Shown here piece after piece: positions 43,299 through 47,533 of a stretch of 64,000 nucleotides of DNA (position 1 is the first letter of the stretch; every line of letters starts with the position of its first letter). The position numbers and the translations under genes are program-made. The notes beneath the pieces were generated by a model. That model had not been told where the DNA came from. It saw only the letters and a list, made by a program, of their open reading frames with translations, and did no database searches. Origin of the DNA: an uncultured Acetatifactor sp. (lineage in GTDB: Bacteria > Bacillota > Clostridia > Lachnospirales > Lachnospiraceae); the NCBI GenBank assembly GCA_947627535.1, contig CANQWM010000004.1, positions 85,623 through 149,622 of the forward strand. The letters are read 5' to 3'.

Positions 43299-43937
43299 TT
43301 ATCCCTCGCTGGCGCAGATTCTTTTAATACACCACGTCTGCATAAAACCAATTATCCCTTCATCATTGCCAGTTTCGCAAAACTCTATTAACATAGCCCT
43401 AAATTCTTCCAGTTTTTCAATCGGAATCTGAAAAATGCCTATATTGTTCTGGATCAATACTTTATTAGCAATAAGCTGTGCCACACGTTTATTTCCGTCA
43501 ATGAACATCTGTGCTCTCGCAACATAACAAAAAAATTTTAAGGCTTTCAACTCAACATCTTCTATTTGTTCAATGCTTTCCAGCGTGTCTATAATAACTC
43601 CCGTGTGAGGCATTTCCGGTTCCCATGAAGTACCACCTATCTGTACTGGTATTGTTCGGATTTCACCTGCATAATGAAATAACAGTTCTCCGACAATTTT
43701 ATTATATTCTCTGAGCAGCATGAGATTATTGTCACAATCCAGATGATCCAGCAAAAATTGCCACGCTCTTTTCATGTTTATGATAAACAAAACTTCTTCT
43801 GTCTTTGTTGTGGTTGTCACATTGGCCAATATAGCCTCTGTTTTAGGAAAAGTCGTTCCCAATCCTTCAAGATTAGCGCTCTTCCATATACTGTCCACTA
43901 ACAGTCTTTTCGCCATTTCTATCGCTGAATCCCGCAT
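43299..43937 (-). CDS. Fic-family protein with Gln in place of the catalytic His
   Basis: A 212-residue Fic/Doc-like protein. The core motif reads QMFIDGNKRVAQ, near residue 160, against the consensus HxFx(D/E)GN(G/K)R: the catalytic His is Gln, while the Asp, Gly, Asn and Arg are kept. Fic proteins transfer AMP or phosphate to targets and need the His as base, so this copy may be inactive, a decoy, or use another mechanism. Related gut Firmicutes sequences with Gln are possible and should be compared. AAGGAG precedes ATG 43937. Its promoter appears to lie in the duplicated unit at 44085-44113. Confidence 0.82.
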   Translation of the reverse strand: MRDSAIEMAKRLLVDSIWKSANLEGLGTTFPKTEAILANVTTTTKTEEVLFIINMKRAWQFLLDHLDCDNNLMLLREYNKIVGELLFHYAGEIRTIPVQIGGTSWEPEMPHTGVIIDTLESIEQIEDVELKALKFFCYVARAQMFIDGNKRVAQLIANKVLIQNNIGIFQIPIEKLEEFRAMLIEFCETGNDEGIIGFMQTWCIKRICASEG

Positions 43938-44571: not shown

Positions 44572-46062
44572 TCAGCCAAGTAAGGACAGAACACCCTGGT
44601 TTGCCTGATTTGCCTGAGCCAACATTGCCTGGCCTGCCTGGGACAGGATATTGTTGTTGGAGTACTTCACCATCTCAGTAGCCATATCGGTATCACGGAT
44701 CTGGCTCTCTGCGGAGGTAGTGTTCTCAACGACGTTATCCAGGTTGTTGATGGTGTGCTCCAGTCTGTTCTGAACTGCACCGAGTGCGGAACGCTGAGTG
44801 GAAACCTTCTGGATGGCTTCCTTGATGGTGTCGATCGCGCTTAATGCGTTGGTGTCATCCACACCGTCCACCTTCAGGCCATTTACGCCAAGTCCCTTTG
44901 CGCTCATGGTGTCGATGTTCATGGTGATCTGGTTGTTGCTGGTAGCGTCTGCGCCTACATGGAGGGATACCGTGAGGGCGGCAGTCAGATCCTGAAGGGC
45001 TGCAACATCAGCTGCATCAGCACTGACTTTGTTGCCTACTGCATCGTATAACTGCGGTGCACCGGTTTTTGTTGCAACAGTCACAGTGCCATCGTCACCT
45101 GTCGAAGCAACAAAGTAATTACTCAGAGCATTTGCGGAAATTGCGTTGCCATCCCTGTCATAATACTTAGCCTGCTCTTTGTCAGACTCCACCGCCGTGA
45201 TGTCGGTTGCAATTACGGTCGCAGAGGCACTCTGTCCCACATGATCTTCATCTGCAGTCATGTCAGTAGGGCCGCCGGTTGCAGTAAGACTAGCTAAAGG
45301 ATTACCTTCTTTATCCCTAATTTCAAATGTTCCGGCTGTTTTGTCCTTAACAACTACGTCAAATTTCTCTGCTGCTGAACCAAGCAATTCCATTTCATAA
45401 ACTGCTTCATATTCATCAGTTTTACCAGCTTTCAGCGCTATACTCTTTGTAATCTTGACACCTTGATCACGGAACGCCATCAAAAGCTCGTTCATATCAT
45501 CCTGCAGACCGGCTTCGGTAGGTGCAGCGATGGTAAGATCGGAAATCGTCAGTTTAGTGCTGTCGTCTGTACTGAACTTTGCCGTTCCATTCTGCCCCGC
45601 TGCAAAATTCTTGTAGCTGTAGGTATACCCCTTCTCCAGATCCTTATCGCCCTTCAGCAGATAAGTCTCGTTGAACTTGGTGGTCTCAGCCACACGGTCA
45701 ATCTCGGTGGTCAGCTGGTCGATCTCGTTCTGGATGTAGCTGCGGTCGTTCTCGGAGTTGGTGCCGTTTGCTGCCTTCACTGCCAGCTCGTTCATTCTCT
45801 GCAGCATATCCTGAACTTCGTTCAGTGCGCCCTCTGCAGTCTGTACTGCGCTGATGCCGTCCTGCGCGTTGGCGGATGCCTGAGTCAGACCTCTGATCTG
45901 CTTCCGCATCTTCTCACTGATGGACAGGCCTGCCGCGTCGTCAGCCGCACGGTTGATCTTGTAGCCGGAAGAAAGCTTCTCGGTGGACTTTGCCTGTGAA
46001 GAACTGGTCAGACCCAGCATTCTGTTGGAGTTCATTGCTGTTAAGTTGTGTTGTACTACCAT
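44572..46062 (-). CDS. fliC: Flagellin
   Basis: A 496-residue flagellin. The conserved N-terminal D0/D1 (VVQHNLTAMNSNRMLG, then STEKLSSGYKINRAADDAAG) and C-terminal D1/D0 (AIQKVSTQRSALGAVQNRLE, then NILSQAGQAMLAQANQ) flank a variable central region of about 230 residues. LQRMNELAVKAANGTN corresponds to the region recognised by TLR5 in other flagellins. It is secreted by the flagellar export system and polymerises into the filament. GGGAGG lies just before the ATG. It follows csrA after 157 bp that contain hairpins but no clear terminator or strong promoter, so transcription from upstream of csrA is likely. Confidence 0.97.
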   Translation of the reverse strand: MVVQHNLTAMNSNRMLGLTSSSQAKSTEKLSSGYKINRAADDAAGLSISEKMRKQIRGLTQASANAQDGISAVQTAEGALNEVQDMLQRMNELAVKAANGTNSENDRSYIQNEIDQLTTEIDRVAETTKFNETYLLKGDKDLEKGYTYSYKNFAAGQNGTAKFSTDDSTKLTISDLTIAAPTEAGLQDDMNELLMAFRDQGVKITKSIALKAGKTDEYEAVYEMELLGSAAEKFDVVVKDKTAGTFEIRDKEGNPLASLTATGGPTDMTADEDHVGQSASATVIATDITAVESDKEQAKYYDRDGNAISANALSNYFVASTGDDGTVTVATKTGAPQLYDAVGNKVSADAADVAALQDLTAALTVSLHVGADATSNNQITMNIDTMSAKGLGVNGLKVDGVDDTNALSAIDTIKEAIQKVSTQRSALGAVQNRLEHTINNLDNVVENTTSAESQIRDTDMATEMVKYSNNNILSQAGQAMLAQANQANQGVLSLLG

Positions 46063-46083: not shown

Positions 46084-46121
46084 CGCTCCGAATCCGTTCG
46101 GAGCGTTTGGGCCTTTGGCCC
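46084..46121 (-). promoter_or_regulatory. Flagellin 5' leader hairpins with CsrA-type loop
   Basis: The hairpin CGCTCCGA / TCGGAGCG (46105-46084 on the minus strand) presents ACGGAT in its loop, matching the CsrA core ANGGA. A second hairpin GGGCC-AAA-GGCCC (46121-46109) lies just upstream, and the ribosome-binding region contains GGGAGG. In Bacillus subtilis CsrA represses flagellin translation by binding two such sites. The neighbouring gene is csrA. The sequence match is direct; the regulation is inference. Confidence 0.6.
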
Positions 46122-46219: not shown

Positions 46220-46495
46220 TTACCTTGCGGCCTTCGCCGCCCCCGCTTTCTTCTTATCCTCCCGGATAATGCGGATGATCTCCTGCTGCGCCGCGTCGGA
46301 CACCGGCGTCTTTTTCTTATAGGGAGAGGGTGGAACGGCTCCCGCTTTCTCCGCCACCGCGCTGCGGACGATGTTGACCTCTCTCGGCGCGTCTATCATC
46401 AGGTGGATGTTGTTTCCCGTTCCGCCTACGAAGACGATCTTTACGTTTTCTCCCACCATGAGATACTCGCCCGGTCTTACGGATAGATTCAGCAT
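46220..46495 (-). CDS. csrA: Carbon storage/flagellin translation regulator CsrA
   Basis: A 91-residue RNA-binding protein. Residues 1-55 show the CsrA fold: LNLSVRPGEYLMVGENVKI, then IHLMIDAPREVNIVRSAV, with the RNA-contacting Arg in the APREVNI strand. The family usually has 60-75 residues; this one has an extra Lys/Ala-rich tail of about 25 residues. It dimerises and binds GGA loops in leaders. It starts 45 bp left of the left inverted repeat of the recombinase cassette, with GGGAGG ahead of the ATG and no other obvious promoter, and it precedes flagellin. Confidence 0.95.
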   Translation of the reverse strand: MLNLSVRPGEYLMVGENVKIVFVGGTGNNIHLMIDAPREVNIVRSAVAEKAGAVPPSPYKKKTPVSDAAQQEIIRIIREDKKKAGAAKAAR

Positions 46496-46540: not shown

Positions 46541-46573
46541 CACAACATTTTTCTGAGAAATGTTGTGTTATTT
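46541..46573 (+). repeat. Left inverted repeat / probable recombination site
   Basis: The site 46541-46567 has 10-bp arms CACAACATTT and AAATGTTGTG around the 7-bp core TTCTGAG, and TTATTT continues inward. The 33 bp are repeated as a perfect inverted copy at 47423-47455, where the core reads CTCAGAA. The arm-core-arm form fits tyrosine recombinase targets. Confidence 0.8.
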
Positions 46574-46673
46574 TTTCGGAGAAAAGGGGAAACCGCCGCT
46601 TTTTTTCGTAAAATGAGATTTCAGGGGGACAAAGCCCTCCATACAAAGGCCGACAGGCAGAAGGAGACAAAAC

Positions 46674-47252
46674 ATGAGCGTAACACAACCGATCCGAACA
46701 AAAGAAGACTTAAAGAAGTTAGAAAATTTTTATCCGGACATTACTCCGGTGAGCCAGCGGAATCATCTGCTGATCCTGATGGGGCTGAACACCGCGCTGC
46801 GGATCACGGATATCCTGAACATGAAATGGAACGCCGTATATGACTTTTCCAACCAGAAGCTGAAGACACATGTGGAACTGACGGAACAAAAGACGGGAAA
46901 GCACACCCGGATCGTTCTGAACGCGATCCTGCAGGACGCGCTGATAAACTGGATGGCGGTGAAACAGCCTGCTCCCGAAGATCCCATCTTTGAAAGCGCG
47001 CGGAGCAAAAATCCTCTGGACCGGCATCAAGCCTACCGCATTATACGCAGAGCCGCCTCCGGCTGCGGACTCTGCGACCACATCGGCTGCCATTCCCTGC
47101 GAAAAACATTCGGCTATCACGCCTGGAAACAGGGCGTTCCGCCTGCGGTGCTGATGGATATTTACAACCATTCTTCCTATCAGGTCACCACCCGCTATCT
47201 TTGCATCGACCAGGATGACAGGGACAACGTATTCCGACAGATTCTGCTGTAA
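46674..47252 (+). CDS. Small tyrosine recombinase (invertase-like, FimB-sized)
   Basis: A 192-residue recombinase made only of the catalytic domain, without the N-terminal core-binding domain of most integrases. All catalytic residues are visible: Arg in NTALRITDIL, Lys in QKTGKHTR, His and Arg in CHSLRKTFG, His in IYNHSSY, and Tyr in TTRYLCI. Its size equals that of FimB and FimE, which invert the fim promoter in E. coli. It sits entirely within the inverted repeats at 46541-46573 and 47423-47455, so it would flip together with its own gene. AGGAG precedes ATG 46674. Confidence 0.88.
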   Translation: MSVTQPIRTKEDLKKLENFYPDITPVSQRNHLLILMGLNTALRITDILNMKWNAVYDFSNQKLKTHVELTEQKTGKHTRIVLNAILQDALINWMAVKQPAPEDPIFESARSKNPLDRHQAYRIIRRAASGCGLCDHIGCHSLRKTFGYHAWKQGVPPAVLMDIYNHSSYQVTTRYLCIDQDDRDNVFRQILL

Positions 47253-47372
47253 GATCCCCGCGGTGTCTCTTGCTAATTCCGCAGGAAGCGCCGGAAAACG
47301 ACCTGATAAAAACCGTAGAAAGGAATTATAACTGTCCATGCCAAACTGCTAAAAAAATCTGCTTCAGGGGGT

Positions 47373-47398
47373 TAAGAAAAAGAAAATGCGTCCGATAT
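47373..47398 (+). promoter_or_regulatory. Sigma-D (SigD/FliA-type) promoter motif in invertible segment
   Basis: TAAG (47373-47376), 15-bp spacer, CCGATAT (47392-47398), compared with the TAAA-N15-CCGATAT consensus used by the flagellar sigma factor of Bacillota. It points right, away from csrA-flagellin, and is only 25 bp from the right inverted repeat. No gene lies downstream in that direction before a terminator-like hairpin. Confidence 0.75.
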
Positions 47399-47422
47399 AA
47401 TAAATGTAAGCAAGGGAAACAC

Positions 47423-47455
47423 AAATAACACAACATTTCTCAGAAAAATGTTGTG
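47423..47455 (-). repeat. Right inverted repeat / probable recombination site
   Basis: Perfect inverse copy of the left repeat: arms CACAACATTT and AAATGTTGTG, core CTCAGAA, inward extension AAATAA. On the plus strand it is followed by TTATTTTTATTT, so it can also work as a terminator for rightward transcripts. Confidence 0.8.
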
Positions 47456-47533
47456 TTATTTTTATTTCCCCATTTTGGGGTAAATTATTCATCTTTTTGT
47501 TTTTTTCACAGGCTGCGAACCAAATGCCCCGGG

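Follow-up and report, generated by a model that had tools for sequence, protein, structure and literature searches.

The window, that is, the whole stretch of 64,000 nucleotides analysed here from an uncultured Acetatifactor sp., contains a 0.9-kb segment (46541-47455) bounded by 33-nt inverted repeats that are 100% complementary and lie 849 nt apart. A tyrosine recombinase gene and a flagellar promoter-like sequence are located inside the segment, and a csrA paralogue and a flagellin gene lie outside its left end. The features of the locus are as follows:

44572-46062, minus strand: flagellin of 496 aa (Flagellin_N, Flagellin_C), predicted to be the second gene of the switched operon
46084-46105, minus strand: hairpin cgctccgaaCGGAttcggagcg in the flagellin leader, with its loop 34 nt ahead of the ATG; candidate CsrA-binding site
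46220-46495, minus strand: csrA paralogue of 91 aa (PF02599; L4 and R44 conserved), predicted to be the first gene of the switched operon
46541-46573, plus strand: left inverted repeat and predicted recombination site on the csrA side (arm, core TTCTGAG, arm, then TTATTT); outward U-tract absent
46674-47252, plus strand: tyrosine recombinase of 192 aa, catalytic domain only; R43, K73/K76, H140, R143, H166 and Y175 present
47373-47398, plus strand: sigma-D-like promoter TAAG-N15-CCGATAT, pointing away from csrA (OFF)
47423-47455, minus strand: right inverted repeat and predicted recombination site, with the same core inverted
47423-47461, reading right: terminator-like hairpin over the right site
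47456-47470, plus strand: U-rich outer flank of the right site, a predicted dead end for the promoter as now oriented

The gene downstream of the flagellin (43299-43937, minus strand) is presumably of the Fic type (GNKR-like motif), and no Rfam family matched between 43500 and 48600 of the window.

The site within each repeat was found to be CACAACATTT-TTCTGAG-AAATGTTGTG, in which 10-bp palindromic arms enclose a 7-bp core that is reversed between the copies. The initial annotation of this DNA had described perfect 33-bp inverted repeats with a reversed asymmetric 7-bp core, and its coordinates and sequence were correct to the base. It had also placed a U-tract on the right outer flank and none on the left, which agrees with the outward sequences, TTATTTTTATTT beyond the right site and CGGCAGGATTC beyond the left site. 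An excision element was rejected, as the cores are inverted and not direct. A hairpin fold and a match to a terminator pattern were found for both repeats. The hairpin score was -8.7 at both window sites; the family trend is towards a weaker csrA-side hairpin, but the csrA-side hairpin of the window is not weakened because both arms are identical. When the 2.85-Mb draft genome was scanned with up to two mismatches, the site pattern occurred at four places, two for each of two homologous recombinases, and the reversed-pattern control gave 0 matches in the same genome.

The promoter ends 24 bp from the 33-bp repeat and 30 bp from the 27-bp arm-core-arm site. By arithmetic, with the transcription start assumed to lie 7 nt past the -10 element, inversion would move the promoter to 46598-46623 and give a leader of about 96 nt ahead of the csrA ATG; the positions and arithmetic first proposed for this element hold. 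Its motif is close to the Butyrivibrio sigma-28 pattern TAAA-N16-17-MCGATAa given in PMC3720852. The FliA/sigma-D gene found in the same genome exceeds the family cut-off. Additionally, a sigma-70-like match, TTAAGA-18-TATAAT at 47372-47401, overlaps the flagellar promoter, and some sigma-A transcription from this promoter is therefore possible.

PF00589 matched the recombinase with an E-value of 2.5e-23 over residues 9-176 of 192 aa, which leaves no room for an N-terminal domain, and the catalytic-domain-only tyrosine recombinase that had been proposed between the repeats was thereby confirmed. R43, K73, K76, H140 and R143 were kept in 97/97 homologues, and H166 and Y175 in 96/97. A profile built from 34 members of the recombinase family matched the solved XerA, XerD and XerH chains, and a PDB chain search with the single recombinase sequence gave no match; the fold is thus assigned from sequence profiles. 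FimB and FimE of E. coli are also short catalytic-domain-only tyrosine invertases that flip a promoter, and their genes lie outside the invertible element. The recombinase studied here is similar to them in its short, catalytic-domain-only form and in profile similarity, but it is encoded inside the segment and its scores of 37.9 and 43.7 bits lie below the FimB/FimE family cut-offs of 221 and 222 (NF007370, NF007371).

For comparison with relatives, the best 80 of 148 relatives from a scan of genome collections were taken, and further loci came from genome searches and direct retrieval. We analysed 97 non-duplicate recombinase loci, including the window, with more than 43% identity over more than 140 aligned residues; six duplicate loci (L002, L005, L006, L007, L008 and L063) were left out of the counts, and near-copies such as the window and L031-L033 remain among the 97. 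The cassette family was found mainly in Lachnospiraceae, with relatives mostly from Acetatifactor, Eubacterium and other Lachnospiraceae. A csrA gene was located within 0.8 kb of the recombinase at 82 of the 97 loci and a flagellin alone at three; at the other 12, neither was present in the available stretch (some contigs were short), and the family is therefore not tied to flagellin alone.

Paired sites were accepted for 75 of the 97 loci and 22 loci were dropped. Of these pairs, 74 have csrA and a scorable orientation, and eight of the 82 csrA-linked loci had no paired-site solution. The 75 pairs comprise the 72 from a relaxed pair finder, minus L112, whose automatic pair was dropped as an artefact of a longer duplication, plus L040, L041, L053 and L067. 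The inner length of the cassettes was 752 bp on average (range 665-1194). The relaxed finder solved 72/97 own pairs, compared with 103/2000 mismatched left/right combinations (about 5%). The cores were fully identical in 67 of the accepted pairs and had one mismatch in eight; the core matches of the finder themselves prove nothing, because it demanded a match at all but one base. In a core-blind test, the sites were located by a matrix with zero-scoring core positions, and both sites had to exceed 14 bits. This test revealed that the 7-bp core was identical in inverted order in 60/61 loci, with one mismatch in L050, as opposed to 86/3660 (2.35%) across loci. Manual grouping of the loci gave nine genomes with at least two scored cassettes, and the cores differed within each of them. 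Since no more than 2.35% of cross-locus pairs have the same core, chance suffices to explain these differences, and we do not claim selection for insulation.

A sigma-D-like match with at most one mismatch was located 12-35 bp inside one site, pointing outward, in 74/74 loci, which had been picked by their sites and not by their promoter; matches at both ends were found in 0 loci, and shuffled cassettes would be expected to give 0.2 in total. In seven of these loci, promoter and recombinase are divergently oriented; the seven have GTAACACA-like arms, form one tree group (SH-aLRT 96) and comprise two ON and five OFF cassettes. With respect to csrA, the promoter was OFF at 69 loci, including the window, and ON at five (L041, L045, L064, L084 and L109). 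The ON loci were scattered and unclustered on the recombinase tree, nested among OFF loci at separate places, and the orientation has therefore changed repeatedly. In particular, the recombinase genes of L109 (ON) and L102 (OFF) are 83.5% identical in DNA, but the flanks around them have changed places.

When the ON cassette was inverted at its core in silico, the colinear score increased in 5/5 ON/OFF comparisons: from 649 to 846 for L109/L102, 423 to 750 for L064/L009, 662 to 1120 for L041/L066, 754 to 1194 for L041/L053 and 526 to 733 for L045/L100. These comparisons took in four of the five ON loci, with L041 used twice and L084 left out. In 2/2 OFF/OFF controls, the flip lowered the score (1892 to 1159 and 532 to 373). 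The gains in the former and the losses in the latter therefore demonstrate an inversion difference at these sites between species, which is the level of comparison here, as each species is represented by one genome in the collections. The mirrored arrangement that the initial annotation had proposed to look for in relatives is thus present, with five ON and 69 OFF loci, swapped flanks and gains upon flipping. From these comparisons, we infer inversion within a strain. Given both orientations among related bacteria, the segment likely lets them turn a surface flagellin on and off; the 69:5 bias towards OFF would also fit rare or one-way switching. One assembly, JAMPGX, has three scored cassettes (L109, L038 and L090), one ON and two OFF, and a fourth (L090 at 6001) that was left unscored; the one ON and two OFF cassettes are compatible with a single active flagellin at a time.

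We also found that the two outer flanks differ consistently. In 73 of 74 loci, the 9 nt outward of the far site contained more T residues than the 9 nt outward of the csrA-side site, with a tie in the remaining one; the same was true of 54/54 loci after the recombinases were thinned at 80% identity. The far-side hairpin was more stable in 58 loci, less stable in six and tied in 10, including the window (43, 6 and 5 after thinning). The T excess follows the csrA side and not the orientation of the cassette, and it holds in 5/5 ON loci. On a plain reading, the fixed far site would act as a terminator and the csrA-side site would be read through; the low csrA-side T count may be due in part to the purine-rich leader ahead of csrA. 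The T excess was absent where flagellins flank both sides, with 4 and 4 T in L004 and 4 and 3 T in L063/L112. In L063 (4286-8371), which is the same place as L112, the cassette is enclosed by two divergent flagellins with homologous genes behind them, as an inverted duplication, and U-tracts are absent from both flanks here and in L004; the two flagellins of L063 are 79.4% identical overall and 91/68/90% identical in their N-terminal, middle and C-terminal parts. Divergent flagellins also lie on both sides of the cassette in L004. These loci have the apparent form of an either/or flagellin switch.

With paired sites, matched cores, catalytic residues, a promoter of fixed position and direction, a far-side U-tract and both orientations among species in place, we consider it highly probable that segment 46541-47455 is a self-encoded invertible promoter cassette that switches csrA-flagellin and is presently OFF. 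The initial reading as an autonomous flagellin switch captured OFF remains the best one, on the strength of mirrored relatives and matched cores, with flipping in the strain as its inferred part. The adjacent recombinase would recombine the two flanking sites at the 7-bp core, and each flip would move the sigma-D-like promoter between the terminator-like dead end (predicted OFF) and the csrA-flagellin operon (ON), so that transcription would follow orientation. An alternative flagellin would thereby be used phase-variably, in addition to the resident one on contig C36. In the ON state, the CsrA paralogue would be made from the same transcript as the flagellin and would bind the GGA-loop hairpins in flagellin mRNA leaders, either lowering the resident flagellin, in an FljA-like role, or matching the CsrA dose to the extra flagellin mRNA.

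To place the cassette among the flagellin genes of the same genome, we compared the five Flagellin_N matches. The weakest, on contig C12, is probably FlgL, and the C20 gene, which shares only 70/140 N-terminal residues, is taken to be a more distant flagellin. The C4, C9 and C36 flagellins share 132-135/140 N-terminal and 85-86/90 C-terminal residues and only 34-43% of the aligned residues in the middle, and near-identical ends with a divergent middle are as expected for exchangeable surface variants. The resident C36 flagellin has a sigma-D-like TAAA-N15-GTCGATAT upstream and a leader hairpin cgcaaaAGGAtttgcg with a GGA loop, and the site-pattern scan of the draft genome (up to two mismatches) found no recombination site there. 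Because three flagellins have near-identical ends and one of them, C36, is preceded by a sigma-D-like promoter of its own and lacks such a site, the cassette probably switches an alternative flagellin rather than motility as such.

The second recombinase of the genome, 66% identical to that of the window, is located on contig C9 (C9:75908-76480, L111). Its surroundings are the same, with csrA, flagellin, paired sites and an outward promoter directed away from csrA (OFF), and its CsrA protein is identical to that of the window; the cores of the two cassettes differ (TTCTGAG vs CTGTCTA). In a near genome, the csrA genes of L031 and L037 are 98.9% alike in DNA. As they are more alike mutually than either is to the copies of the window genome, we regard this as a sign of csrA homogenisation between cassettes.

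The genome also has a canonical csrA on contig C12, next to a FliW-like ORF. The CsrA paralogue of the window scored 65.8 bits with PF02599 against a cut-off of 27, and it reached neither of the CsrA equivalog cut-offs (37.7 and 33.7 bits against 73 and 70.1 for NF002469 and TIGR00202). Cassette-linked paralogues are mostly longer, commonly 91-92 aa, than the canonical C12 copy (72 aa). R44, an RNA-contact residue, is present in 82/82 cassette-linked copies. A GGA-loop hairpin was found in 73/78 scored flagellin leaders, compared with 10.5 expected from single-base shuffles; this set counts duplicate loci and includes a few matches far from the start codon or overlapping the ribosome-binding site.

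In B. subtilis, the ratio of CsrA dimer to hag transcript is near 1:1, and extra csrA in a merodiploid lowered the hag transcript 3-fold (PMC6529632). From these data, the switched csrA could act as a repressor of the resident flagellin or offset the additional mRNA; either role is a prediction for the present genome. The CsrA paralogue may thus be a dose compensator and not a repressor of other flagellins, in which case every additional flagellin mRNA would come with its own CsrA to keep the Hag-FliW-CsrA balance, with flagellins added and not exchanged, a reading that we regard as doubtful but well worth weighing. The GGA-loop hairpins in the leader of the switched flagellin itself and in the resident C36 leader fit such a role, whereas the 3-fold effect in the merodiploid favours net repression (PMC6529632). 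The locus is similar to the B. subtilis Hag-FliW-CsrA system in the control of flagellin by CsrA through the leader (PMC6529632), and the genome has the usual csrA (C12) as well; it differs in having a second, diverged csrA of about 91 aa in the predicted switched operon.

It is unlikely that the cassette, with its design intact, is effectively locked OFF in this lineage by a silent or strongly biased recombinase, as a relic or a very rare switch. The OFF state of 69/74 scored assemblies, among them records not labelled MAG (L060, L071, L096 and L105), is in line with such a state, but the window has repeats without a mismatch in 33 bp and a recombinase with all its catalytic residues, and the ON loci are nested among OFF loci at separate tree places. 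Considerably less probable still is that the promoter serves another RNA, outward or antisense, and that csrA-flagellin has its own promoter, so that inversion would exert no control over flagellin. The overlapping sigma-70-like match could be read in this way; however, the csrA ATG is only 45 nt from the left site and no sigma-70-like site was found in these 45 nt, the outward path ends at a terminator-like hairpin with a U-tract, and the recombinase is paired with csrA at 82/97 loci. That the repeats are merely two bidirectional terminators, as their hairpin folds and matches to the terminator pattern might suggest, is rejected with near certainty because the cores, an asymmetric element needless for terminators, match within pairs (60/61, against 2.35% across loci) and vary between loci, and flipping improves colinearity.

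We compared the predicted switch with known systems. In Salmonella, hin and a promoter are carried on an invertible segment, one orientation of which expresses an alternative flagellin and a regulator, and the opposite orientation leaves the operon silent while another flagellin is used; inversion by Hin uses Fis and HU (PMC9368917). Hin is a serine recombinase that acts at hix (PMC11868660). The layout of the present locus resembles that of hin-fljBA, in that the segment carries both the recombinase gene and the promoter, with the flagellin operon outside it. The initial annotation had thought the carriage of both on one flipping segment unusual, a view that the Salmonella hin precedent does not support (PMC9368917). 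In contrast to hin-fljBA, the recombinase here is a tyrosine recombinase (PF00589), the sites have palindromic arms and locus-specific cores, a CsrA paralogue precedes the flagellin in place of FljA, and the far site doubles as a terminator-like element. The flg switch of Clostridioides difficile spans 154 bp, has 21-bp repeats and lies upstream of the flgB operon; its recombinase RecV is shared with the cwpV switch, and control is exerted after transcription initiation (PMC5386303). It is similar to the present locus in its tyrosine recombinase, inverted repeats, flagellar phase variation and origin from a gut clostridial relative, but the present segment is about 0.9 kb long, carries recombinase and promoter inside and is located before csrA-flagellin. 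As in invertons, matched-core inverted repeats flank a promoter and both orientations occur, here between species.

Among the matches listed in PubMed Central, no published description of these cassettes was found; genome-wide inverton tables may list some of the sites. PMC3720852 deals with csrA and the promoters of flagellin genes in Roseburia and Eubacterium, and its available text has 0 occurrences of recombinase or integrase. PMC7278147 mentions that Eubacterium rectale has copies of csrA and of flagellin genes that lie outside operons, and its available text has 0 occurrences of recombinase or inversion.

At somewhat short of an even chance, we propose that gut Lachnospiraceae independently evolved a Hin-fljBA-type exchange: self-flipping flagellin modules, each with its own recombinase and core, in which the far site would be the terminator and the CsrA paralogue would silence translation of the resident flagellin. 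Some loci would then be either/or switches between two divergent flagellins, and several modules per genome would provide combinatorial antigenic variation. Such a system would be a convergent counterpart of the Salmonella switch, based on another class of recombinase and on a regulator that binds RNA. Gut flagellins, including those of Lachnospiraceae, have been studied as immune antigens. If many flagellin genes sit behind switches that are mostly OFF in assemblies, the presence of a gene would not equal the presence of the antigen, and flagellin exposure could shift within a host without a change of species. Given the conserved site rule and the ON/OFF geometry, existing long-read metagenomes could serve to test the model.

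The breadth of the family was estimated from an even draw of 299 genomes of the same bacterial family, in which a close recombinase (E 1e-20 or better) was present in 29, own genome included. One locus was taken from each of the other 28 genomes. A csrA gene adjoined the recombinase at 12 of the 28 loci; 10 of the 12 had paired sites, and eight of these 10 had a strict promoter, all of them OFF (8/8), the other two having none. The far-side T excess was present in 10/10. Paired sites were also present in L149 and in L144, the contig of which stops 165 bp upstream; neither csrA nor a strict promoter was seen in these two loci. The remaining 14/28 loci had neither csrA nor a pair; at least three loci of this draw (L132, L133 and L134) repeat earlier ones.

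Several relatives depart from the common arrangement. L059, L073 and L092 (6001-6579) contain close recombinases with no csrA or flagellin match and no paired sites, and the genes adjoining them presumably belong to an ATP synthase operon. An additional ORF of 336-369 aa separates the recombinase from a distant candidate right repeat in L046 (6823-7872), L061 (6542-7651) and L090 (6649-7659), as if it had been inserted into the cassette. Finally, in L020 (about 1327-2144), from another family of the same order, a 21-nt inverted repeat AATTTGTTTAAAATGTTACAT around the recombinase resembles a half-site.
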